The position numbers and the translations under genes were made by a program. From assembly GCF_013283745.1 (NCBI RefSeq), contig NZ_JABSTZ010000005.1, forward strand, positions 124,001 to 188,000: a DNA stretch of 64,000 bases. Direction: 5' to 3'. The notes under the pieces are model-generated. The model was not told the DNA's origin. It saw only the letters and a list, made by a program, of their open reading frames with translations, and did not search any database. This stretch comes from Aeromicrobium stalagmiti (GTDB lineage: Bacteria; Actinomycetota; Actinomycetes; Propionibacteriales; Nocardioidaceae). Positions 1 through 13,564 of this stretch are shown here, piece by piece; position 1 is the first letter of the stretch; each line of letters opens with the position of its first letter.

Positions 1-623
1 TGGTCGCAATGTTGCGCGATCCGCGGCGCCGGACGAACAGCGGGAGTGAAGTCGTTCACCTACTCAGCGGCATTGCCAAGTGCGGTCGATGTGGTGGAGC
101 CATGCGGGGGGCACCTGCAAACCGGACCGGTAACAAGCGTCAGCCCCGTGCGTACTTCTGCGCCTCCTGTTACAAGGTGCGCCGCAAGGCGGATTCTGTC
201 GACGAAGTGGTCGAGGGGGTCGTCGTGGCCCGCCTCTCACGCCCTGACGCGGTCGGACTCTTCGGCGGAAACCCGGACGCAATGAGGCGAGCGCGCGACG
301 AGGCTTCAGCGATCGAGTCGCGCATGGAGATCGCGGCCGATCAGTTCGCAGACGGGGCAATCACGGGTCCGCAGCTGGAGCGCATCACCGCGAAGCTCAA
401 GCCCCAACTGGAAGTCGCGCGCGCACGTCTTCGAGAAAGTGAGCCCGCGCCTGAGATGCAGGAACTAACAGGACCAAAGGCGGGGGAGTCTTGGCGACAG
501 GCGACGATCGACCGGAAGCGCGCGGTCATCGAAGCGATCATGACGATTACGATCCTGCCGTCCGGGGCAGGGAAGTCGTTCGATGCCAGCCAGGTGAAGA
601 TTGATTGGACGGCGACAAGATGA
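1..623 (+). CDS. Large serine recombinase (phage integrase), C-terminal part
   Basis: This is the C-terminal portion of a large serine recombinase that would catalyse element integration and excision. The frame is open to the left edge, so the catalytic serine domain lies outside the window. Counting from the first in-window ATG at 9, a zinc ribbon is visible with cysteine pairs at about residues 25/28 (KCGRCGG) and 51/54 (FCASC). A charged helical stretch (about 90-150) then suggests the coiled-coil arm of phiC31/Bxb1-type enzymes. The gene ends in an ATGA overlap with the next one. The family is clear from zinc ribbon plus coiled coil plus context; the subtype cannot be judged. Confidence 0.85.
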   Translation, partial: VAMLRDPRRRTNSGSEVVHLLSGIAKCGRCGGAMRGAPANRTGNKRQPRAYFCASCYKVRRKADSVDEVVEGVVVARLSRPDAVGLFGGNPDAMRRARDEASAIESRMEIAADQFADGAITGPQLERITAKLKPQLEVARARLRESEPAPEMQELTGPKAGESWRQATIDRKRAVIEAIMTITILPSGAGKSFDASQVKIDWTATR

Positions 624-1741: not shown

Positions 1742-1977
1742 AGCGCGACGGCTGGATCAAGGTCGAGATTGACCCCGTCAACCACTCCGCATTCGTAAGT
1801 GGCTGGAAAGCGAAGTCATACATCGAGCAGTGTGGCGGTCGCCCGCTCTACTCCCGACGACGAAAAGCGTGGTCGACGTCAGAAAACACAGCCCGCGACG
1901 TGCTCGCGTTGGCCGATCACGACGGCTGCGGCATCCACTACGCAAACCTTGCCCACTGTGACGAGGTGGCCGGATGA
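1738..1977 (+). CDS. Small hypothetical protein
   Basis: A 79-residue protein starting at the GTG that overlaps the previous stop (GTGA). The frame extends further upstream, but the overlapping start is preferred because every junction in this run has the same form. The sequence mixes beta-like stretches (WIKVEIDP, SAFVSGW) with a basic patch (PLYSRRRKAW) and contains HDGCGIHYAN near the end. I do not recognise the family. It is encoded immediately before the RepA-like ATPase, with which it overlaps by 4 bases. Confidence 0.6.
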   Translation: MKRDGWIKVEIDPVNHSAFVSGWKAKSYIEQCGGRPLYSRRRKAWSTSENTARDVLALADHDGCGIHYANLAHCDEVAG

Positions 1978-3044
1978 GCGCCGATCTAGACGCTTGGGTT
2001 CCCGACGAGATTGAGGCCACGACAGAACTCAAGAGGTCTTGGCAGGCCGTCGACCTCTCGGCGGTCCTTGACGGTTCGTGGACGCCGCCTGAGGCGCATG
2101 TGGGGCGCCGTACAGACGGTGTTGGCCTGTTCTACGCAGGCAAGGTCCACACGATCGCCAGCGAGTCAGAGGCGGGCAAGACTTGGTTGATGCTGTCGGC
2201 GTGCATCGACGAGATGACCGCTGGCAACCATGTCGTCTACCTCGACTTCGAGGATGACGAGGGCGGGCTCGTCAGGCGGCTACTTGGCCTTCAGTGCAAT
2301 CCCGAGGTCATCCGAGCGCGGTTCCACTATGTGAAGCCCTCGACGGCTCTCGGGACCGGGATTAATGCCGATGATCTGCGTGAGGTGATGGCTGTCTACA
2401 AGCCGACCCTCACCGTGATCGACGGGGTCACCGAGGCGATGACGATGCACGGGATGGACCCGCTGTCGAACAAGGACATCGCAACCTTCGGCCGGATGCT
2501 TCCGCGAGCCCTGGCCGCCTTTGGCTGCGCTGTCGTGTGCCTCGACCATGTCGTCAAAAGTGGCGAGAATCGCGGCCGGTACGCGCTAGGCGGCGTGCAT
2601 AAGCTCAATGGTCTCGATGGTGCCGCTTTCGTGCTCGAGAACCGCAAGCCGTTCGGCGTCGGGTTGGTCGGCATCTCAACAATTCGCCTCGCCAAGGACC
2701 GTCCTGGTCAGCTCCGCAAGAACGGCGTGCCGAGCAAGGAGGGCATGTTCTGGTTCGCAGACCTGAGGCTGAACAGCCACACCGAGGGATTCCTCGAGGT
2801 CGAGATCGTGCCACCCGAGATCAAGGAGCAGGGCGAGTTCCGACCGACCGCGCTCATGGGTCAGATCTGCGCCGCTCTCGAGAAGCACGGTCCGCTGTCC
2901 GCGGCCAAGATCGAGGCTGTCGTCAGGGGTAAGGCGATGACCATCAGGACTGCCCGCAACCTTCTGCAGATCGAGGGATTCGTCTCCGATGGAACACCTC
3001 ACGCCTTGCTGAAGCCATGGGTGGAGGGAGATCAGAATGATTGA
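1974..3044 (+). CDS. RepA/RecA-like AAA ATPase (probable replication helicase)
   Basis: A 356-residue P-loop ATPase of the RepA/RecA-like type (AAA_25 style). The Walker A-like loop is SESEAGKT (residues 63-70), and an acidic strand TLTVIDG follows at 145-151 as Walker B. A conserved CLDHVVKSG segment lies near 189-197. The last 70 residues look like a winged helix (GPLSAAKIEAVVRG). Such proteins are hexameric replicative helicases of plasmids and phage islands. The start overlaps the previous gene (ATGA). Directly behind the stop lies a repeated octamer array, which would suit a replication origin. Function is inferred from family and context. Confidence 0.75.
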   Translation: MSADLDAWVPDEIEATTELKRSWQAVDLSAVLDGSWTPPEAHVGRRTDGVGLFYAGKVHTIASESEAGKTWLMLSACIDEMTAGNHVVYLDFEDDEGGLVRRLLGLQCNPEVIRARFHYVKPSTALGTGINADDLREVMAVYKPTLTVIDGVTEAMTMHGMDPLSNKDIATFGRMLPRALAAFGCAVVCLDHVVKSGENRGRYALGGVHKLNGLDGAAFVLENRKPFGVGLVGISTIRLAKDRPGQLRKNGVPSKEGMFWFADLRLNSHTEGFLEVEIVPPEIKEQGEFRPTALMGQICAALEKHGPLSAAKIEAVVRGKAMTIRTARNLLQIEGFVSDGTPHALLKPWVEGDQND

Positions 3045-3046
3045 CT

Positions 3047-3189
3047 CTCGTCCCCTCGTCCCCACCTCGTCCCTACTCGTCCCGGACGAGGCCCCAAGTA
3101 CCTCGTCCCTCGTCCCCCTCCCTAAGGGGGGACGAGGACGAGGACGTAGGACGGGGTCACCAACACCGGTTGGCCTCGTCCCTCGTCCC
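3047..3189. repeat. Iteron-like array of CTCGTCCC octamers
   Basis: Eight direct copies of CTCGTCCC start at 3047, 3055, 3066, 3076, 3102, 3109, 3175 and 3182. One inverted copy, GGGACGAG, lies at 3129-3136, with partial GACGAG repeats beside it. Spacings cluster at 7, 8, 10 and 11 bases. The array begins 3 bases after the stop of the RepA-like ATPase. Iterons next to a replication ATPase commonly mark an origin, but the copies here are not in helical phase, so this is a suggestion only. A reading frame crosses the array but is low-complexity Ser/Pro/Arg. Confidence 0.6.
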
Positions 3190-3210
3190 GAGGCCTGGAT
3201 CGACTGTGGT

Positions 3211-3423
3211 TCAGGCCGGACGAAGTGGACCTTGCCCGTCATCGTCGTCATCGTCGTCGTAGCCCCAGAAGTTCCTGACGTCGATGCCCTCGAAGCGCGC
3301 GACGATGTACATGATGGCGGCGATACCGATCGCGGCTCCCTTCGCGGAGTTCGGTCCCTGCCACATCGTCAGCACCAGCCCCGCGATCAGCACACTTGCG
3401 CCGATCCTGATGAGCCACTTCAT
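3211..3423 (-). CDS. Small membrane protein with a poly-aspartate tail
   Basis: A 70-residue protein on the strand opposite its neighbours. Two hydrophobic segments (about residues 4-20 and 30-44) are followed by a soluble tail with a run of seven aspartates (GYDDDDDDDG). The amphipathic pattern and sensible TM helices favour a real gene over a shadow. No strong ribosome binding site is visible, and the tail is encoded by a simple GAC/GAT run. Unknown function. It would be transcribed convergently toward the octamer array. Confidence 0.45.
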   Translation of the reverse strand: MKWLIRIGASVLIAGLVLTMWQGPNSAKGAAIGIAAIMYIVARFEGIDVRNFWGYDDDDDDDGQGPLRPA

Positions 3424-3449
3424 CCGTCGAGCGTAACGGCGGTGTCAGC

Positions 3450-3857
3450 GTGAGCGACTACCAGCGGCGCTCTTGGCGAATCAAGAAGAGCGAGGGCATC
3501 AGCATCGTGACCGGCAGGGTTGCCGCGATCATGCACGAGCGTCTCGATCTGGCCGAACTGCGACGCGCGGCGTTGGGGTCGGACCCCGAGCTGCACGACC
3601 AGTTGCTCAGCCTGCATGAAGCGGCTCTCGAGTGGCGTGCTTCCGCAACCGGAAGTGCCATCGCGCCAGAGCCGGAAGTTCCGCGAGAGTCAAAGCAGTG
3701 GATGAGTACGGGTCAGGTTGCCAGCCAGTTGGGGATCACTGACCGGGCGGTTCGCCTAGCGATCGCCCGGTCAGCCCTCAAAGCAACAGAGGTCGGCGGC
3801 AGGTACCGGATCACCCGCGAAGACATGGAGCACTACCGAGCCGCAAGAGCGGCGTGA
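3450..3857 (+). CDS. HTH protein with excisionase-type C-terminal domain
   Basis: A 135-residue DNA-binding protein. The N-terminal half is charged and helical. The C-terminal 50 residues carry an excisionase/MerR-type winged HTH: MSTGQVASQLGITDRAVRLA followed by a wing (VGGRYRITREDMEHY). Such domains serve as excisionases or repressors in actinobacterial elements. The GTG start at 3450 follows a region without a clear ribosome binding site. The TGA overlaps a GTG of the next frame, but the downstream gene has a better start at 3869. It could be the directionality factor for the serine integrase or a regulator of the tape-measure operon. Confidence 0.7.
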   Translation: MSDYQRRSWRIKKSEGISIVTGRVAAIMHERLDLAELRRAALGSDPELHDQLLSLHEAALEWRASATGSAIAPEPEVPRESKQWMSTGQVASQLGITDRAVRLAIARSALKATEVGGRYRITREDMEHYRAARAA

Positions 3858-3868
3858 AGGAGATCAGC

Positions 3869-4501
3869 ATGGAACGACAGGAAGCAATCAAGACGCTCGT
3901 CAAGGGCGGCAAGTCAGCCGACGTCCGGAAGTTGCTCCACGAGAAGGCCGACTCCGCTCACCGTGCGTACAGCCAGATCACGAGCGACGCCGATCTCACC
4001 GAAGAGGCGAAGCGTTCGCGTCAAGCGGCCCACTACATGAGCGTGATCAAGGGCGTGAACGATGAGCTGAGTCGGATGGCCAGCCGTGTTTACCTCACGG
4101 ACCAGGACGACGCCTCGACCGTGTTCGGTATCAAGGGGCTCGACGGTGACGTTGCCAGTCTGTCGATCTCGCGTCGAGATGCCGCGGACCGTATCGCATC
4201 GTGTGAGGCCAGCGCGCAGGTCCTCGAGCTGCTGCGGCGTGCAACTCGTTCCGGCGATGAGGTGCTGGCCCGGGCAGCCGCTGAGTGGGGAGTTGAGCAC
4301 CGCGACCCCAAGGTGGCTAACGAGTTCCTCAAGACCCGGCCGCAGCACGACGCAGCCCTCCAGCGGCTCTGGGATGGCGAGGCAGCAGAACGCGGCGGAG
4401 GCATGGATATCGCGATCGCAGTCGGTGGCATCCGGCCAGGCGACATGTTCTCGATGTCGGACAGCCAGATCGAAGCCCTCGCCCAGCCGGCGTACTCGTG
4501 A
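3869..4501 (+). CDS. Hypothetical protein upstream of the tape-measure gene
   Basis: A 210-residue, mostly alpha-helical acidic protein. The ATG at 3869 is preferred over an in-frame GTG at 3854 because AAGGAG (3857-3862) sits 6 bases ahead of it. The stop overlaps the next gene (GTGA). In tailed phages the two genes just before the tape measure usually encode tail-assembly chaperones made by ribosomal frameshifting. This gene and the next occupy that position, but I see no clear slippery sequence near 4490 and no recognisable chaperone motif. Function unknown. Confidence 0.65.
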   Translation: MERQEAIKTLVKGGKSADVRKLLHEKADSAHRAYSQITSDADLTEEAKRSRQAAHYMSVIKGVNDELSRMASRVYLTDQDDASTVFGIKGLDGDVASLSISRRDAADRIASCEASAQVLELLRRATRSGDEVLARAAAEWGVEHRDPKVANEFLKTRPQHDAALQRLWDGEAAERGGGMDIAIAVGGIRPGDMFSMSDSQIEALAQPAYS

Positions 4502-4707
4502 TCAGCGACGACGACGCCATGGCCACCTTCACCCGCGCCCTCTTCGGAGTTGAAGGTGAGCGACCCGCAGCACATGAGCAAGCGGAGACAGCTAAGCCGA
4601 ACCGCGCTCCTCGAGAAGGCAACATCACCCCGCCTGATCACTCGGACCGAGAGGGTCGGTACTTCGCTGCCGACCTCTTCGGGATCGATCGGGCATACAT
4701 CCGATGA
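4498..4707 (+). CDS. Small hypothetical protein before the tape-measure gene
   Basis: A 69-residue acidic protein whose GTG start overlaps the previous stop (GTGA). It contains two similar hydrophobic patches, FTRALFG near the N-terminus and FAADLFG near the C-terminus, separated by a disordered charged linker. That layout would suit two binding motifs for one partner. It lies where a second tail-assembly chaperone would be expected. I do not recognise the family, and the role is inferred from position only. Confidence 0.55.
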   Translation: MISDDDAMATFTRALFGVEGERPAAHEQAETAKPNRAPREGNITPPDHSDREGRYFAADLFGIDRAYIR

Positions 4708-4866
4708 GGACCAGGGGGAGTGGCACCCGGTCACGGCACAGCCGCACCTCCCGGCATTGGCGGTCCTCTCTATCTGACCCCCCTCCCCCCCCTTATCTGA
4801 CAACTGAATCCCCATCCAGGCGCACTACCGGAGCAACTCGCGGCGTGCGTCAATCAAAAGCTAGGC

Positions 4867-4899
4867 GCGCACCTGGCGATCAACTCAAGGCAGGTGCGC
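4867..4899 (+). promoter_or_regulatory. Hairpin at the tape-measure translation start
   Basis: A perfect 9-bp inverted repeat, GCGCACCTG (4867-4875) and CAGGTGCGC (4891-4899), with a 15-base loop. It ends 4 bases before the GTG at 4904. The probable ribosome binding site (AAGGCAGG, 4887-4894) is partly inside the stem, so folding of the transcript could limit translation. The upstream 160 bases (4708-4866) contain no gene; they show a pyrimidine run near 4780-4795 flanked by two TATCTGAC copies. Confidence 0.5.
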
Positions 4900-4903
4900 A
4901 CCA

Positions 4904-6976
4904 GTGGCAGAAGTGGCAGCAGCATGGGTCAGCTTGGCCCCCTCCGCTAGAGGCTTCGGCAAGAAGCTCGACGCGGAGGTTGGCCCACAACTCGACAAGT
5001 CGGGCAAGTCGGCGTCGAAGCGTCTGGGCAGTTCGATTGGGTCCGGCCTCAAGTCGGCCCTGACTCCTGCCCTTGCGATCCTCGGCACGGCTGGTGTCGG
5101 CTCGTTCTTGAAGGGCTCGATCGACGAGGCGCGTGAGGCTCAGAAGGTTGGCGCGCTGACGAACGCTGTCATCAAGTCGACGGGTGGTATCGCGAACGTC
5201 ACCGCCAAGGATGTCGACAAGTTGGCCTCTTCGCTGTCCGCGAAGATCGGTGTCGACGACGAGGCCATCGCCGCTGGTCAAAATATGCTCTTGACCTTTG
5301 GCCGGGTGCGCAACGAGGTCGGCAAGGGCAACGACATCTTCAACCAGGCCACCGTGGCTGCCAATGACATGGCGGCGGCGTTCGGCGGCGACGCGGTGTC
5401 GAACTCGAAGATGCTCGGCAGGGCCCTCAATGATCCGACCAAGGGCGTTTCGGCCCTGACCCGTGTCGGTGTCTCGTTCACGTCGCAGCAGAAAGAGCAG
5501 ATCAAGACGCTGCAGGCGTCGGGCGACATTCTCGGGGCGCAGAAGATCATCCTTGGCGAGGTCGCCAAGCAGACCGAGGGCGCAGCAGCCGCAACCGCCA
5601 CCAGTGGCGAGAAGATGTCGGTCGCGTTCGGCAACCTGCAGGAGACTGTCGGCACTGCGCTGATCCCGGTCATCGACAAGTTCAACAAGAAGCTGACCAG
5701 CGACATCATTCCGGCTGTCTCGTCGTTCGTGACGGGCATGCAGGATGGCACTGGCGCGGGTGGTCAGGTCGCAAGCACGCTGCGTGACATCTACAACGCT
5801 GGCAAGCCGATCGTGACCGTCCTCGCTGCGATCGTCCAGGGTTTCGCTGGGCTTCCGGGTGGGACGCAGAAGGTCATCCTGCTCGCTGGTGCAGTCGCGC
5901 TGTTGTCGAATCGGTTCTCTGGCTCGCTTCCCTCGTTGCAGAACTTTGATCGCACGGCCGCGCTCGCTACGGCTAAGACGGTCGCGCTTCGTGGCGGCGC
6001 GCTTGCTGCGGGTGCTGGACTCGCTGCGCTGACGACGAAGGCTGGCGGAACCTCGACCAGCCTTGGTGCGCTCACGACGATCGGCGCAGGCGTTGCCACC
6101 GGGTTCGCTGTCGGCGGGCCGTGGGGCGCTGCTCTCGGCGGCGCGGCTGGCCTCCTGTCGGTCTTCACTGGCCGCTCGAATGCCGCCGCCGCGTCGCAGG
6201 CGCGCTTCAAGGCCAACGCTGCCAGTGTTGTCGCGACGCTGAATCAGGAGACGGGCGCACTTACGGGAGCCACCCGTGCAGCGACCGCCAAGGCCCTCGC
6301 GGACGACGACGCATTTAGCGCGGCGCGAAAGATGGGGATCTCCTACAACGATGTCCTCGCTGCGACGCTCGGCAACGAGGCCGCGACCAAGAGGGTTCAG
6401 AAGGCCACCGAGACTTACCTAACCACCCAGAACACCAGCATCAAGAGCCTCGGGGCTGCGTCGGAGCACGTCGACACATTGCGTCGCGCGATGGGAACCA
6501 CGAGTAGCGAGATCGCGCGGTTCAAGCGCAACACTGACCAGGCGAACTCCGCGCTCGGCAAACTCGACAAGGCGAAGGCCAACCCGAGCGTTCAGATCAC
6601 CGGGCTCACGACCGCACTCGCAAGCATCGCGGTCCTGAATGCTGCCATCGACCATGCCGCTCGCAGGTCTGCAAAGCTCAAGATCGGTGCGAACGCCAAG
6701 GGCACGGACAACTGGCGTGGCGGTCTGACGATGGTCGGCGAGAAGGGTCCTGAGCTCATCAACCTCGCCAAGGGTGCGCAGGTCATCCCGAACCACAAAC
6801 TCGGCGATGTCGGCTCTCAGTCAAAGTCGGGCAGTGTCGGAGCAGGTGACTCGGCGATGGTTGCGCTTCTCGAGCGCATCGCGGTCGCAGCAGAGGCCGG
6901 GAGCAGCGTGCAGATCGATGGGCGCGAGTTCGCCAGGCAAGTGAAGCGAGCAGAGCAGATGGGGAGACGGCTGTGA
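4904..6976 (+). CDS. Phage tail tape-measure protein
   Basis: A 690-residue tape-measure protein, the molecular ruler that fixes siphophage tail length. Evidence: a VSLAPSARGFGKKLDAEVGP-like start, long alanine-rich helices, a central domain with Asn-Asp-Pro-Thr-Lys-Gly-Val, two hydrophobic Gly/Ala-rich stretches (about 300-430), and a C-terminal GGLTMVGEKGPELINL segment seen in many actinophage tape measures. Starts at GTG 4904; the stop overlaps the next gene. By the usual rule of about 1.5 angstrom per residue it would set a tail near 100 nm. No other tail or head genes are nearby, which is unusual. Confidence 0.88.
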   Translation: MAEVAAAWVSLAPSARGFGKKLDAEVGPQLDKSGKSASKRLGSSIGSGLKSALTPALAILGTAGVGSFLKGSIDEAREAQKVGALTNAVIKSTGGIANVTAKDVDKLASSLSAKIGVDDEAIAAGQNMLLTFGRVRNEVGKGNDIFNQATVAANDMAAAFGGDAVSNSKMLGRALNDPTKGVSALTRVGVSFTSQQKEQIKTLQASGDILGAQKIILGEVAKQTEGAAAATATSGEKMSVAFGNLQETVGTALIPVIDKFNKKLTSDIIPAVSSFVTGMQDGTGAGGQVASTLRDIYNAGKPIVTVLAAIVQGFAGLPGGTQKVILLAGAVALLSNRFSGSLPSLQNFDRTAALATAKTVALRGGALAAGAGLAALTTKAGGTSTSLGALTTIGAGVATGFAVGGPWGAALGGAAGLLSVFTGRSNAAAASQARFKANAASVVATLNQETGALTGATRAATAKALADDDAFSAARKMGISYNDVLAATLGNEAATKRVQKATETYLTTQNTSIKSLGAASEHVDTLRRAMGTTSSEIARFKRNTDQANSALGKLDKAKANPSVQITGLTTALASIAVLNAAIDHAARRSAKLKIGANAKGTDNWRGGLTMVGEKGPELINLAKGAQVIPNHKLGDVGSQSKSGSVGAGDSAMVALLERIAVAAEAGSSVQIDGREFARQVKRAEQMGRRL

Positions 6977-7290
6977 ACGAACAGATCGGCCACCGCCCTC
7001 CTACCGCGCAAGAGCAACAGGCAGCGGTGATCATCACCGCCATGATCACCGCGATAGTCCGCAACGACTCGCACACGGCGAGCGACGTCGGAGCGCTTAA
7101 GGAGGATCTATTCGAACTGTTGCCAGACGCCAAGTCAGTGGTTGACCTGACGCTGCAAACCACCGCGTCACTGATCAGCGGCCTATGTCACAGGACGATC
7201 AACGCAGATCCCGAAATCGTCATGCGGCTCTGGCTTGAAAGGGTGCGCGACAGCCCGACTCAAGACATTCGCCCCAGCTCGGAGGGATGA
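6973..7290 (+). CDS. Hypothetical protein behind the tape-measure gene
   Basis: A 105-residue protein starting at the GTG that overlaps the tape-measure stop (GTGA), so the two are probably co-translated. The sequence predicts several amphipathic helices (AVIITAMITAIV, VVDLTLQTTASLISGL) and no membrane anchor. In tailed phages a distal tail gene usually follows here, but this protein is far too short and resembles none that I know. Function unknown. Confidence 0.6.
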   Translation: MNEQIGHRPPTAQEQQAAVIITAMITAIVRNDSHTASDVGALKEDLFELLPDAKSVVDLTLQTTASLISGLCHRTINADPEIVMRLWLERVRDSPTQDIRPSSEG

Positions 7291-10180: not shown

Positions 10181-10570
10181 TTACCGAGTCGGCCTCTCGG
10201 CTCTTGCGTTTGCCACGACTTCGATCTGCCGGTGCCGGTACACCCGCTGCCCAGACTTCGTGACGTGCACCGGGATCCTCTCCTCGTTCGCGAGCTGCGA
10301 TACCCGCACGTGGCTGATGCCGAGGATCATCGCCGCCTGGCGACCGTTCAGCCACGGGTTGTCGATGAACTCCTGGACGTCGGCGCGCGAGTAGGAGGGC
10401 AGGCCCTCGAGCGTGATCAGCAGGCCCTCGCGGCGAAACCTGGTCACGGTCACTTCGGACATCCCCAGCATCTCAGCGGCTTCAGCGAGGGTGATCGCGT
10501 CCGGATTCACAAGCCTTCTGGAAGTCACGACAGCACGATGACACATCCCCGCGATGTATGCATCGGGCAT
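10181..10570 (-). CDS. Tandem-HTH DNA-binding regulator
   Basis: A 129-residue protein with two helix-turn-helix units. The first is ITLAEAAEMLGMSEVTVTRF (about residues 26-45) and the second is NGRQAAMILGISHVRVSQLA (about 74-93), each followed by a short wing. Both resemble excisionase/MerR-type domains. It reads toward the cargo pair (tail to tail) and away from the gene at 10660, with about 90 bases between the divergent starts. A repressor or recombination directionality factor is plausible. The start could also be an internal GTG or ATG (10546). Confidence 0.7.
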   Translation of the reverse strand: MPDAYIAGMCHRAVVTSRRLVNPDAITLAEAAEMLGMSEVTVTRFRREGLLITLEGLPSYSRADVQEFIDNPWLNGRQAAMILGISHVRVSQLANEERIPVHVTKSGQRVYRHRQIEVVANARAERPTR

Positions 10571-11190: not shown

Positions 11191-12000
11191 TCATTTGGGT
11201 TCCGGAAAGTTCTCTGGCGTCAGTCCGCCCTTGGGCATCTGAAGCTTCAATCTTCTGCCGCCCGCTCGGTGCGCGTTCCACGCCAAGATCATGAGGGCGA
11301 GCGCTTCGGTCTCGTTGACCCGCCCACCTCCAACGCGCAGCTTCACGATGCGGAGGCGCAGCGCAGCGATCGGGGAGTCGGCCGCGACTCCATCACCGTC
11401 AGCGACCCTCGCAAGGAACCAGTCAGCTTCGTCGGGATCGAGCGGCGAGAACAGCCAGTGGCATAGGCCAATGACCGACGCTGGCAGGAAAGTTCTGGTC
11501 GCGTACCGAGCGGCCACATCTGCAGACGTCCGTATCTGTGGGTTCGCGCCAATGAAGCCGTTCATCTCTCGAGCGGTCGGACGGACCGCACCAGTGTTCG
11601 TGCGTGCCCCTCGCTGCCACATAACGGCTCGCCTGACGACCGCGGCAAGTGTCGTGGTGTTGTCCTCGCCCTGGAGCTTCAGAGCGTCCGCATAGGTCCG
11701 TTTTGCGCCGACGTCGACCGTGTCCATCACATCGGCATCTACGCCCCGCATGACGACCATGGGAATCGTGACGTCGGCGGCGACGACGGCGGAGAGGCGA
11801 TGCTGGCCGTCGATGAGCTTGCCGGTTTGGTCGAACTTCAGAGTCTCGCCGTTGAGCATCCAGTTGCCGGCGAGCATGTCGCGGGCGTAGGAGTTCACGA
11901 CGGGTTGGCGGAGGTTGCGGTTGTTCGGATTCTTCGCGAGCCAGGATTCGGCCATGGCGGGGGTGACGTCGATGATCTCGACGGTGGGCGGGTTGGGCAT
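11191..12000 (-). CDS. DGQHR/ParB-like domain protein
   Basis: A 269-residue protein. An N-terminal helical region that includes NNRNLRQPVVNSYARDM is followed by DGQHR at residues 64-68 and AVVAADVTIPMVVMRGVD, which matches the ParB/Srx-like DGQHR fold of phage, plasmid and island proteins. ATG 12000 is chosen because AAGGA sits about 7 bases ahead. A longer form from GTG 12090 would run through three of the four palindromes upstream. The role may be partition, DNA modification or regulation. It is last in a minus-strand operon. Confidence 0.7.
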   Translation of the reverse strand: MPNPPTVEIIDVTPAMAESWLAKNPNNRNLRQPVVNSYARDMLAGNWMLNGETLKFDQTGKLIDGQHRLSAVVAADVTIPMVVMRGVDADVMDTVDVGAKRTYADALKLQGEDNTTTLAAVVRRAVMWQRGARTNTGAVRPTAREMNGFIGANPQIRTSADVAARYATRTFLPASVIGLCHWLFSPLDPDEADWFLARVADGDGVAADSPIAALRLRIVKLRVGGGRVNETEALALMILAWNAHRAGGRRLKLQMPKGGLTPENFPEPK

Positions 12001-12016
12001 CGGATTTCCTTGGTGA

Positions 12017-12131
12017 GTGTCGCCAATTGGCGACAGGGGCGGGGCAGCCTCCAAATCCTTGGAGGCCGGTGTATCGGAAATTTCCGACACTGTGGCGCCG
12101 CCGCCCGGGTGTCTACCGTGGTAGACACCCG
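12017..12131. repeat. Cluster of four palindromes upstream of the DGQHR gene
   Basis: Four dyads in 115 bases. (1) TGTCGCCAATTGGCGACA, perfect 18-mer, 12018-12035. (2) GCCTCCAA and TTGGAGGC arms, 12047-12066. (3) TCGGAAATTTCCGA, 12074-12087, inside GTGT...ACAC flanks. (4) CGGGTGTCTACC and GGTAGACACCCG arms, 12106-12131. Sites 1, 3 and 4 fit one pattern: GTGTC, a self-complementary decamer, then GACAC (site 3 has a 2-base insertion, site 1 a final G). The inner decamers differ but stay palindromic. They may be operators, partition sites or RNA hairpins. Confidence 0.8.
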
Positions 12132-12174
12132 AGTGGCGGGCGCGGTGAGCCTCGTGTGCCGTTCGGGTCGGGGA

Positions 12175-12795
12175 TCATGCGCGAGCCGCCTCGCATGCGT
12201 CGAGGGCATGTTGGATCGCCAGATGATTGGCCTTGCTCGCCATCCAGGGAGCTGGCCACGCGGGGAGGCAGTCGGGGCCGAACTGCTCCCATTTGCGCAT
12301 CGCAGTCTTGAGCGTGACTCCCTTTCGCCAGTCGGCATACGCCTGGAACATTCGCCAATCGACGAGAAGCACTCGGCGCAAGATCCGGCCGGCGACCGCA
12401 AAGTGCGCGTCGCTGTCGTTCATGTAATCGATCAACAGGTCATACAAGACTGGGTCGATCAATCGTTGAGAAGCAGCCCGCTGCACCCGACGCTCCTCGA
12501 TGCGCTCCTTGCCCCCGCTCCGTTCGAACCCGCCTCGATCAAGATGGACCAACTCGTGGGTCAGGGTGGAACGAAGCGAATGCTCCGGGCGACCGACCAA
12601 GAGCGAAACGGATAGATCTGCGAAGTGGGTGACCCCCAAGGGGCGCTCCCACTTCGCGACCTTGCCGTTATGCCACCTGAGGTCAACCCCGGTACGGCGT
12701 GCGAGATCGTCCCACGGCGAGTACGCGGCCGGACGGCTCATGAGCCGAACGCCCACGGCTTCGGCGAGCCGAGGAGGTAGCCCGCCCGCCTTCAC
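12175..12795 (-). CDS. HExxH zinc metallopeptidase-like protein
   Basis: A 206-residue protein with HELVH (residues 80-84) in the context RSTLTHELVHLDRGG, typical of IrrE/ImmA-like or minimal metallopeptidases. Acidic residues some 20 positions further (ERIEERR) could supply the third zinc ligand. The GTG start at 12795 overlaps the previous stop (GTGA), so it is preferred over longer frames. In phage islands such peptidases often cleave a repressor to trigger induction. Whether this one does so, and on which HTH protein of the element, is unknown. Confidence 0.7.
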   Translation of the reverse strand: MKAGGLPPRLAEAVGVRLMSRPAAYSPWDDLARRTGVDLRWHNGKVAKWERPLGVTHFADLSVSLLVGRPEHSLRSTLTHELVHLDRGGFERSGGKERIEERRVQRAASQRLIDPVLYDLLIDYMNDSDAHFAVAGRILRRVLLVDWRMFQAYADWRKGVTLKTAMRKWEQFGPDCLPAWPAPWMASKANHLAIQHALDACEAARA

Positions 12796-12989
12796 GCGTC
12801 GGCCCGCTCGTCGAGCCAGTCGCACTTGGCCTGCATGTCCGCAATTGCGGATAGTTGGGTCCAATCGTCGGCGGTCATCTCGTTCATGACCCGCATATGA
12901 GTCCGGATCGAAGCGCGGACATCGTCAGCAAGCCCGGCAACATCGATGGTCATGTAGTCGCCGCAGTGGACGACGCGCCCGGTACTCAT
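12792..12989 (-). CDS. Small hypothetical protein in the minus-strand operon
   Basis: A 65-residue acidic protein of two predicted helices (VAGLADDVRASIRTHMRVMN and an Asp/Trp-containing C-terminal helix). The ATG overlaps the stop of the upstream gene (ATGA), and the stop overlaps the downstream peptidase start (GTGA), which fixes both ends well. Family not recognised. Confidence 0.6.
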   Translation of the reverse strand: MSTGRVVHCGDYMTIDVAGLADDVRASIRTHMRVMNEMTADDWTQLSAIADMQAKCDWLDERADA

Positions 12990-13387
12990 GCGTCCAACTC
13001 CGATCGAAGGTCGGTCATGATCGCGAGGATGGCAGGAAGGTCGAGCACGTCGTACTCCGAGAAGCCTCCGAAGCCGCTGTCGTCGTGGCCGTCGACCTCT
13101 ATGAACGGGCCGTAGGCGAGCGCGTCCGTTTCGATCGGCGTCTCCAAGCACTCGTACCAAGCGAGGCGGGCAACAAACACGCCGCCGCGGGCCGTGGGGT
13201 GCTTCCGCTCTGCGCCGCGGTGGAAGGCTCCCTCAGAGCTGACCACGTCGCCTTGGTCGTGCTTCTCCGCGCACCAGGCGGGACAGATGAATCCGTCAAG
13301 AGGTTGGACGGGAAGTTCGACCTTGCGGTCGAGTTCCGTCATGTACGGCTTCGGTGGCCGTGACTTCGTTTCAGTAGTGTTGGTCAT
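12986..13387 (-). CDS. DUF6907-like protein, first gene of the minus-strand operon
   Basis: A 133-residue protein. Start ATG 13387 is chosen for its strong ribosome binding site (AAGGGAG); the frame continues upstream only through element/host junction DNA. The centre, FICPAWCAEKHDQG (C35, C39, H43), followed by an acidic region with a second His, fits the DUF6907 pattern common in streptomycete and nocardioform mobile elements, possibly metal-binding. It overlaps the next gene by 4 bases. Its promoter must lie within about 80 bases of the element's right end. Confidence 0.65.
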   Translation of the reverse strand: MTNTTETKSRPPKPYMTELDRKVELPVQPLDGFICPAWCAEKHDQGDVVSSEGAFHRGAERKHPTARGGVFVARLAWYECLETPIETDALAYGPFIEVDGHDDSGFGGFSEYDVLDLPAILAIMTDLRSELDA

Positions 13388-13475: not shown

Positions 13476-13564
13476 TCCCGGTCGTGTTCCTGATCCTGCC
13501 CGTGACCGTCGTCTTCGCCTTCTTTCCCGGCTATGTCGGGCTCCACCTCACTTCGGGCATGTAA
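13469..13564 (+). pseudogene. tadC: C-terminal fragment of tadC (type II/IV secretion F-family protein)
   Basis: A 32-codon frame encodes MLFPVVFLILPVTVV, then AFFPGYVGLHL, the hydrophobic last membrane helix expected of TadC, the inner-membrane platform protein of Tad/Flp pili. It is followed directly by the DUF4244, TadE and TadG-like genes, the normal order behind tadC. A stop codon abuts it on the left, so it is not expressed as an intact protein. The N-terminal part should lie on the far side of the element, left of the window. Its short length is the main uncertainty. Confidence 0.7.

Follow-up and report, generated by a model that had tools for sequence, protein, structure and literature searches.

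Why would a small integrated element keep an intact gene for a tape measure protein (TMP) and no other recognisable gene for a part of the virion? The question is raised by an element of 14,300 bp in Aeromicrobium stalagmiti, at the left end of the window analysed here, which is the whole 64,000-nucleotide stretch of contig NZ_JABSTZ010000005.1 from position 124,001 to 188,000 (G000:C16:124001-188000). The element is probably an integrative phage satellite whose TMP supports the building of chimeric tails from helper parts, a reading carried by the recurrence of the gene across related elements and by the purifying selection acting on it. A first-pass annotation had described an intact 690-residue TMP gene in a small element of roughly 15 kb with an integrase, a RepA-like ATPase and helix-turn-helix (HTH) proteins, and this description was confirmed.

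Element boundaries

The integrated element is complete. It runs from -823 to 13,477 in window coordinates, its 14,300 bp lying between two CCCGGT cores (the left one at C16:123177, window -823), and it interrupts a tadC-like pilus gene. A truncated TadC-like gene directly precedes the serine integrase, which starts 786 bp left of the window (whole gene G000:C16:123214-124623, 469 amino acids; only the C-terminal part, 3-623, lies inside the window), and the missing gene end picks up again at 13,477, right of the element. Joining the flanks in silico restored the TadC C-terminus as it is in relatives and reconstructed the empty site. The uninterrupted gene end was present in 22 of the 30 loci fetched from the genus, the remaining 8 being off-pattern and including the 2 occupied sites (G000 and, from a second species, G025).

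Head or tail genes just left of the window, in the same element, would have refuted the satellite reading, as the first-pass annotation had set out. The 40 kb to the left were fetched and genes were listed over roughly the last 35 kb of them; this list and the exact ends gave no head or tail gene left of the element, and since its ends are defined on both sides no structural gene is hidden there. Set beside what is generally expected of phage satellites, the element has its own integrase and defined ends and lacks a full virion gene set.

The tape measure gene and the search for other virion genes

The TMP matches tape measure profiles (phrog_27166, E 1.7e-23; phrog_26084, 2e-12) and, over about a third of its length, the annotated tape measures of the complete phages Pam4 (46%) and BetterKatz (38%). 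Its closest homologues from named phages include siphophage-type tail modules. The gene had been called coupled to its neighbours, which holds for the downstream open reading frame (ORF), overlapping it at 6973 (GTGA), and does not hold upstream, where the TMP start lies 196 bp beyond the preceding ORF. Further upstream are the genes of an HTH protein and of an all-helical hallmark protein, here labelled DUF.

When the 18 ORFs of the element were scanned against PHROGs, the TMP was the sole clear virion protein. No gene for a capsid, portal, large terminase, tail tube or baseplate could be recognised in the element, nor could pseudogenes of other tail genes, and the TMP stands as the orphan it had been taken for. 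The small-terminase family phrog_57 was touched by the proteins at 10181-10570 (E 8e-9, 39 residues) and 3450-3857 (E 0.0065); excisionase families match better or cover the same HTH segment, and these matches were rejected as small terminases and read as shared HTH. The ORF at 4498-4707, beside the TMP gene, gave no confident Pfam family match; beside the TMP is also where a tail chaperone sits in the phage-inducible chromosomal island-like elements (PLEs) of Vibrio cholerae.

Relatives of the element

A search starting from the TMP in 293 genomes of the order found 15 places in 14 genomes, of which, by reading, 7 had no recognisable head genes alongside, 7 were in prophages that have other structural genes and 1 was a degraded fragment. 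The homologous element of G025 (same genus) occupies the same tadC site, and the two are 69% identical in the integrase, 74% in the ATPase, 48% in the DUF, 39% in the TMP and 76% in the phrog_5931 protein. Two genomes of the same bacterial family (G038 and G153) hold lone-TMP elements with a phrog_1 (tyrosine-type) integrase, and that of G038 has the HTH protein, the DUF and the phrog_5931 protein in common with the window element. About 14 kb of each of L140-L142 were read by eye, and their TMPs were confirmed; one neighbour in L141 is possibly another virion gene. The DUF was not found in G153 or in L140-L142.

Searching with the DUF avoids selecting on the TMP. Such searches gave 12 places in 341 genomes of the family (10 kept), 7 in IMG/VR, 7 in GTDB (4 new) and 18 in 394 genomes of the class (15 new), together 36 mutually non-duplicate loci from Actinomycetes. 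Two weak matches within very long frames (G300, G505) were left out, and L061, L065 and L066 were dropped as repeats of G377 and G484. Hosts named in the GTDB search were Nocardioides, Modestobacter, Sphaerisporangium, Actinomadura and Mycobacterium interjectum (L062). A TMP was present in the same element in 24 of the 36 loci; with the 7 of 15 places found separately from the TMP, this bears out the expectation that independent copies keep the TMP while lacking other tail genes. The TMP call in G484c2 rests on phrog_37657, which has no named function and co-occurs with named tape-measure matches in six other elements, that in G484c7 on 93% identity to G484c2, that in L064 on E 2e-5, and those in G025, G038 and G361 on BLAST matches to other TMPs rather than the PHROGs scan. 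L056 is a piece on a 4.5-kb contig, and the TMP of L057 lies across an integrase and was uncounted. At least 8 of the 24 elements, scanned in part, carry a small terminase (G484c2, G372, G206, G361, L088, L058, L063, L064); one guessed by eye in L056 was not borne out.

In 11 TMP-bearing elements, the 138 other called ORFs of 75-650 amino acids were scanned; one of 139 was dropped as lying beyond its element, and shorter ORFs, for example the 73-residue small terminase of G361, fell outside the scan. Twenty PHROGs families were matched at E<=1e-8. Those bearing a virion or packaging name are the small-terminase family phrog_1496, with 2 members; phrog_57, whose single member is the HTH protein of the window element; and the minor-tail family phrog_226, whose single member is a G206 protein classed as Terminase_7 by Pfam. 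At E<=1e-3, no capsid, portal or large terminase was among the matches listed (25 of 64 PHROGs families; 25 of 33 Pfam families).

Some DUF-bearing loci carry a different part. L060 and L087 have a small and a large terminase and no portal, capsid or TMP recognised by reading, a packaging-only variant, and L090 has a 595-residue minor tail protein (11330-13117; phrog_110, E 3e-185) where others have the TMP. L057 has a weak minor-tail match (E 3e-4) and L096 a small terminase only. By reading, no virion gene was recognised in L062, L089, L092, L094, L098, L099 or L100; scans of single genes in L089 and of two in L098 gave no match. The DUF contains a stop in L094 and L099, and L100 is a weak match.

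The TMPs themselves are mosaic. Despite the shared site, the window and G025 TMPs (L020/L021) are 28.5% identical over the N-terminal 300 residues and 57% in the middle, and the N-domain of the window TMP is 61% identical to that of the G038 satellite and 53% to that of a prophage (G155). A single clade of satellite TMPs apart from phages was ruled out by these BLAST mosaics. The closest relative by backbone, L059 (an IMG/VR contig of 40.7 kb; ATPase 84%, phrog_5931 protein 89%, ORF8925 82%), has a TMP of 1084 residues with no BLAST match to the window TMP, which suggests that the TMP was swapped and the backbone retained.

Selection on the conserved cassette

One genome, G484, holds two satellites, with a phrog_95 (serine-type) integrase in C2 and a phrog_1 (tyrosine-type) integrase in C7, whose HTH and DUF-TMP blocks share about 82-92% DNA identity. 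Conservation of these blocks despite different integrase families, together with the substitution ratios that follow, indicates that the cassette is maintained, and HTH, DUF and TMP appear to move as a unit. For the TMP pair the ratio of nonsynonymous to synonymous substitution rates (dN/dS) is 0.13 (dN 0.049, dS 0.387; 500 bootstraps, 95% 0.09-0.17), with dN below dS in 10 of 10 blocks of 100 codons; the DUF pair gives 0.21 and the HTH pair 0.08. The phage comparison pair Finalfrontier/Softsoap stands at 0.11/0.35. This close pair of satellites was used because comparisons of the window TMP, at dS 1.0-1.3, are near saturation: they give 0.33-0.42 where the domains are better conserved (the middle domain for G025, the N-domain for G038 and for G155) and, against G025, 0.59 for the C-domain, 0.53 for the whole and 0.78 for the N-domain. 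A ratio below 1 and relatives free of random TMP breakage had both been anticipated in the first-pass annotation, and both were found, with one degraded copy (G167).

These data bear on whether the element is a decayed prophage with the TMP as its last intact relic. Decay does occur, since in G167 a TMP-like frame of only 232 amino acids lies beside transposase-like genes. A relic is, however, at odds with a TMP retained across many elements that differ in integrase and site, with the ratio of 0.13 and with the identity of the HTH and DUF-TMP blocks between elements of different integrase families, and for the window element this explanation is extremely improbable. For the family as a whole it is already refuted: TMP recurrence together with the ratio of 0.13 means that, judged from sequence comparison, this is a satellite family and not a decaying prophage, in line with the first-pass preference.

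Replication module

The repeat CTCGTCCC occurs 11 times in the window, with 9 copies inside 3047-3189. The array also lies behind the ATPase gene in G025, L059 and G484c7, with a variant array in G206, and this recurrence after the ATPase across elements points to an iteron origin. The ATPase and iteron array are predicted to give the element its own replication control (4 elements, with a variant in a fifth). An ORF at 3037-3453 is probably not a gene, the iteron array lying there instead.

Many plasmids are likewise built on a RepA-like ATPase with iterons, and the window copy has no convincing small terminase. The element might then be an integrative plasmid and not a satellite, its TMP being cargo that aids a phage carrying the element by generalised transduction. 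DUF-bearing relatives carry a small terminase, alone or with the large subunit, or else a minor tail gene; genes of this packaging kind function in transfer by a phage and count against a plasmid, which we regard as quite improbable.

Proposed role of the tape measure protein

The TMP could also be an interference weapon that poisons or sequesters the assembly of helper tails without itself entering satellite particles. Tail-assembly blockers exist in satellites and prophages, namely Tai (PMC11364771) and Rta in PLE11 (PMC12987554), and a full-length TMP could be dominant negative. Neither Tai nor Rta is, however, described as a full tape measure in the available text of these papers, and the TMPs of PLEs are incorporated in virions (PMC12987554). 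In the G484 pair dN is below dS in all ten TMP blocks, as for a working structural part. Interference alone is an unlikely role.

We infer instead that the TMP is incorporated into chimeric tails. In the presence of an active siphophage helper the element would excise and replicate, while the helper would make heads, tube, terminator and tail tip. Helper tail subunits would polymerise around the satellite TMP and not the helper TMP, and the chimeric tails would deliver satellite DNA. The benefit would probably be an edge in tail competition, matched DNA delivery at entry, or evasion of defences against the helper's TMP; tail length would be altered only if the satellite and helper TMPs differ in length.

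Several points weigh against this reading. In 12 of the 36 DUF loci the element lacks a TMP, and for 7 of these no virion gene was recognised; in the window element itself neither a small terminase nor a tail chaperone was convincing. The PF04860 portal, the one portal family tried, is absent from the window's genome, which argues against a resident helper of that portal type. The first-pass annotation had suggested a tail length set by the satellite, near 100 nm by the usual ruler rule (690 residues at about 0.15 nm per residue). The length comparison gives no support to tail length as the general function of the TMP, because satellite TMPs are not significantly shorter: in Nocardioidaceae lone TMPs have 690-1380 amino acids (median 1053, n=14) and prophage TMPs 863-1265 (median 1176, n=6; P=0.35), the window TMP being the shortest of the 20 compared.

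A wider reading, which we put forward tentatively as possible rather than probable, is that these are class-wide actinobacterial satellites organised around a conserved HTH-DUF cassette, in which the place of a single virion part is open to exchange. That place would most often be taken by a TMP and otherwise by both terminase subunits or by a minor tail protein; a given satellite would thereby replace a single helper assembly step, and the DUF would make the helper use the satellite's part.

Other features of the element and its relatives

From left to right the element carries the integrase, small ORFs, the ATPase, the repeats, the HTH protein, the DUF, a small ORF, the TMP and further ORFs (Table 1). 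Among 39 other element loci, the HTH protein was present in 23, homologues of the phrog_5931 protein in 7 and homologues of the ATPase in 6. Some phage homologues of the phrog_5931 protein are annotated as ParB-like nuclease, and the SprT-like candidate has a 51% homologue in the G025 element. The predicted fold of the DUF is a good model, yet it had no match at E<=0.001 in BFVD or PDB, and the protein had none in the phage collection; the model of the HTH protein reached a predicted template modelling score (pTM) of 0.40 only.

Table 1 Features of the element, in window coordinates
Feature	Position	Strand	Basis or remark
Large serine integrase, C-terminal part	1..623	+	phrog_95, E 7.9e-23; Zn_ribbon_recom
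RepA-like AAA ATPase, replication gene	1974..3044	+	AAA_25, E 2.6e-12; phrog_695
Iteron array CTCGTCCC, 9 copies, probable replication origin	3047..3189	none	Repeat count
Small ORF, 70 amino acids, membrane-protein-like by reading	3211..3423	-	57% identical copy in L059
HTH protein, first gene of conserved cassette	3450..3857	+	HTH_17, E 1.9e-7
All-helical hallmark protein (DUF)	3854..4501	+	AlphaFold pLDDT 89; marks satellite family
Small ORF between DUF and TMP	4498..4707	+	Gene call
TMP, 690 amino acids, intact	4904..6976	+	PHROGs and BLAST
ORF coupled to TMP (GTGA overlap)	6973..7290	+	No family matched
Two-HTH-segment protein, excisionase-like	10181..10570	-	phrog_66, E 3e-11, residues 13-71; phrog_57, E 8e-9, residues 71-109
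phrog_5931 protein	11191..12090	-	E 7.3e-71
SprT-like metallopeptidase candidate	12175..12864	-	Weak Pfam SprT-like match, E 0.013
Right attachment core CCCGGT	13477..13482	none	Partner core 14,300 bp away; joined flanks give intact TadC

The same pilus locus holds another, smaller element, which carries a serine integrase of its own (119462-120862, minus strand) and, by reading, interrupts tadA/cpaF (window -8105 to -3121; G000:C16 about 115,895-120,879; L003), and with insertions in both the tadC-like gene and tadA/cpaF the locus is broken twice. C16:114651-114890 holds a transposase-like fragment. Insertion at the tad pilus locus recurs, in G000, in G025 and for DUF-bearing elements in four other genomes; from the flanks read, the elements adjoining tad genes are L048/L049 (G224), L050/L051 (G361), L063 and L099. 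Elsewhere in the family, the TMP-bearing L086 and L093, both of genome G816, have 1,429 bp of identical sequence in common, indicating recent exchange or repeated DNA, and L092 has a gene that, by eye, may encode a SIR2-type defence protein. The IMG/VR contig G868 was considered as a circular excised genome and rejected, having no exact terminal overlap.

Comparison with known satellites

Well-characterised satellites use helper tails (PMC12987554). TMPs in satellites were reported as new only in March 2026, for PLEs and as putative tmp genes in some capsid-forming phage-inducible chromosomal islands (cf-PICIs), and no description of TMP-bearing satellites in Actinobacteria was found in a literature search that covered few subscription papers and no bioRxiv preprints. 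One survey of prophages in actinobacteria noted that elements shorter than 15 kb may be satellites (PMC10023795). In the family described here no structural gene was recognised more often than a lone TMP (24 of 36 loci), and the DUF is a marker for finding such satellites in actinobacteria, where few were found described. Why satellites bring their own tail ruler can now be tested by comparison of many TMPs, integrases and sites, and relatives seemingly bringing a different part also allow that comparison.

The nearest parallel is the PLEs, which form chimeric tails around their own TMP, and in which TMP deletion cuts transduction by 96-99.9% (PMC12987554). PLE1, PLE4 and PLE11, like the window element, encode a TMP, and the helper provides their tube, their sheath and other parts of the tail; the tails of PLE11 come out 10 nm shorter, and PLE11 escapes Rta, a defence aimed at the helper's TMP (PMC12987554). 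The PLEs differ in belonging to another phylum, in having their own tail chaperone and in some cases a baseplate hub, and in using a contractile-tailed helper, whereas in the window element the TMP alone was recognised and the DUF is without match in the phage collection.

Like the proposed satellite, cf-PICIs make some of the virion themselves and take the remainder from a helper, and the legend of Extended Data Fig. 10 of the same report covers PLE-like elements together with sampled cf-PICIs that have putative tmp genes (PMC12987554). They encode capsid, portal, connectors and both terminase subunits (PMC10690885), none of which was found in the window element. Mulch and Flayer, from Streptomyces, are likewise satellites of phages in actinobacteria and, unlike the window element, where none were found, encode capsid and packaging genes (PMC10690885); in the available text their authors report finding no tail-component gene for the Mulch system, a tail fibre is given for MiniFlayer, and a tape measure is unmentioned. 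The Staphylococcus aureus pathogenicity islands (SaPIs) and other PICIs resemble the element in their size of about 15 kb, integrase, replication module and small terminase (here in several relatives); the markers here are instead the TMP and the DUF, and the window element has a serine integrase. Among satellites of this recently recognised kind, the family forms an independent lineage in actinobacteria, a different phylum from that of the PLEs.

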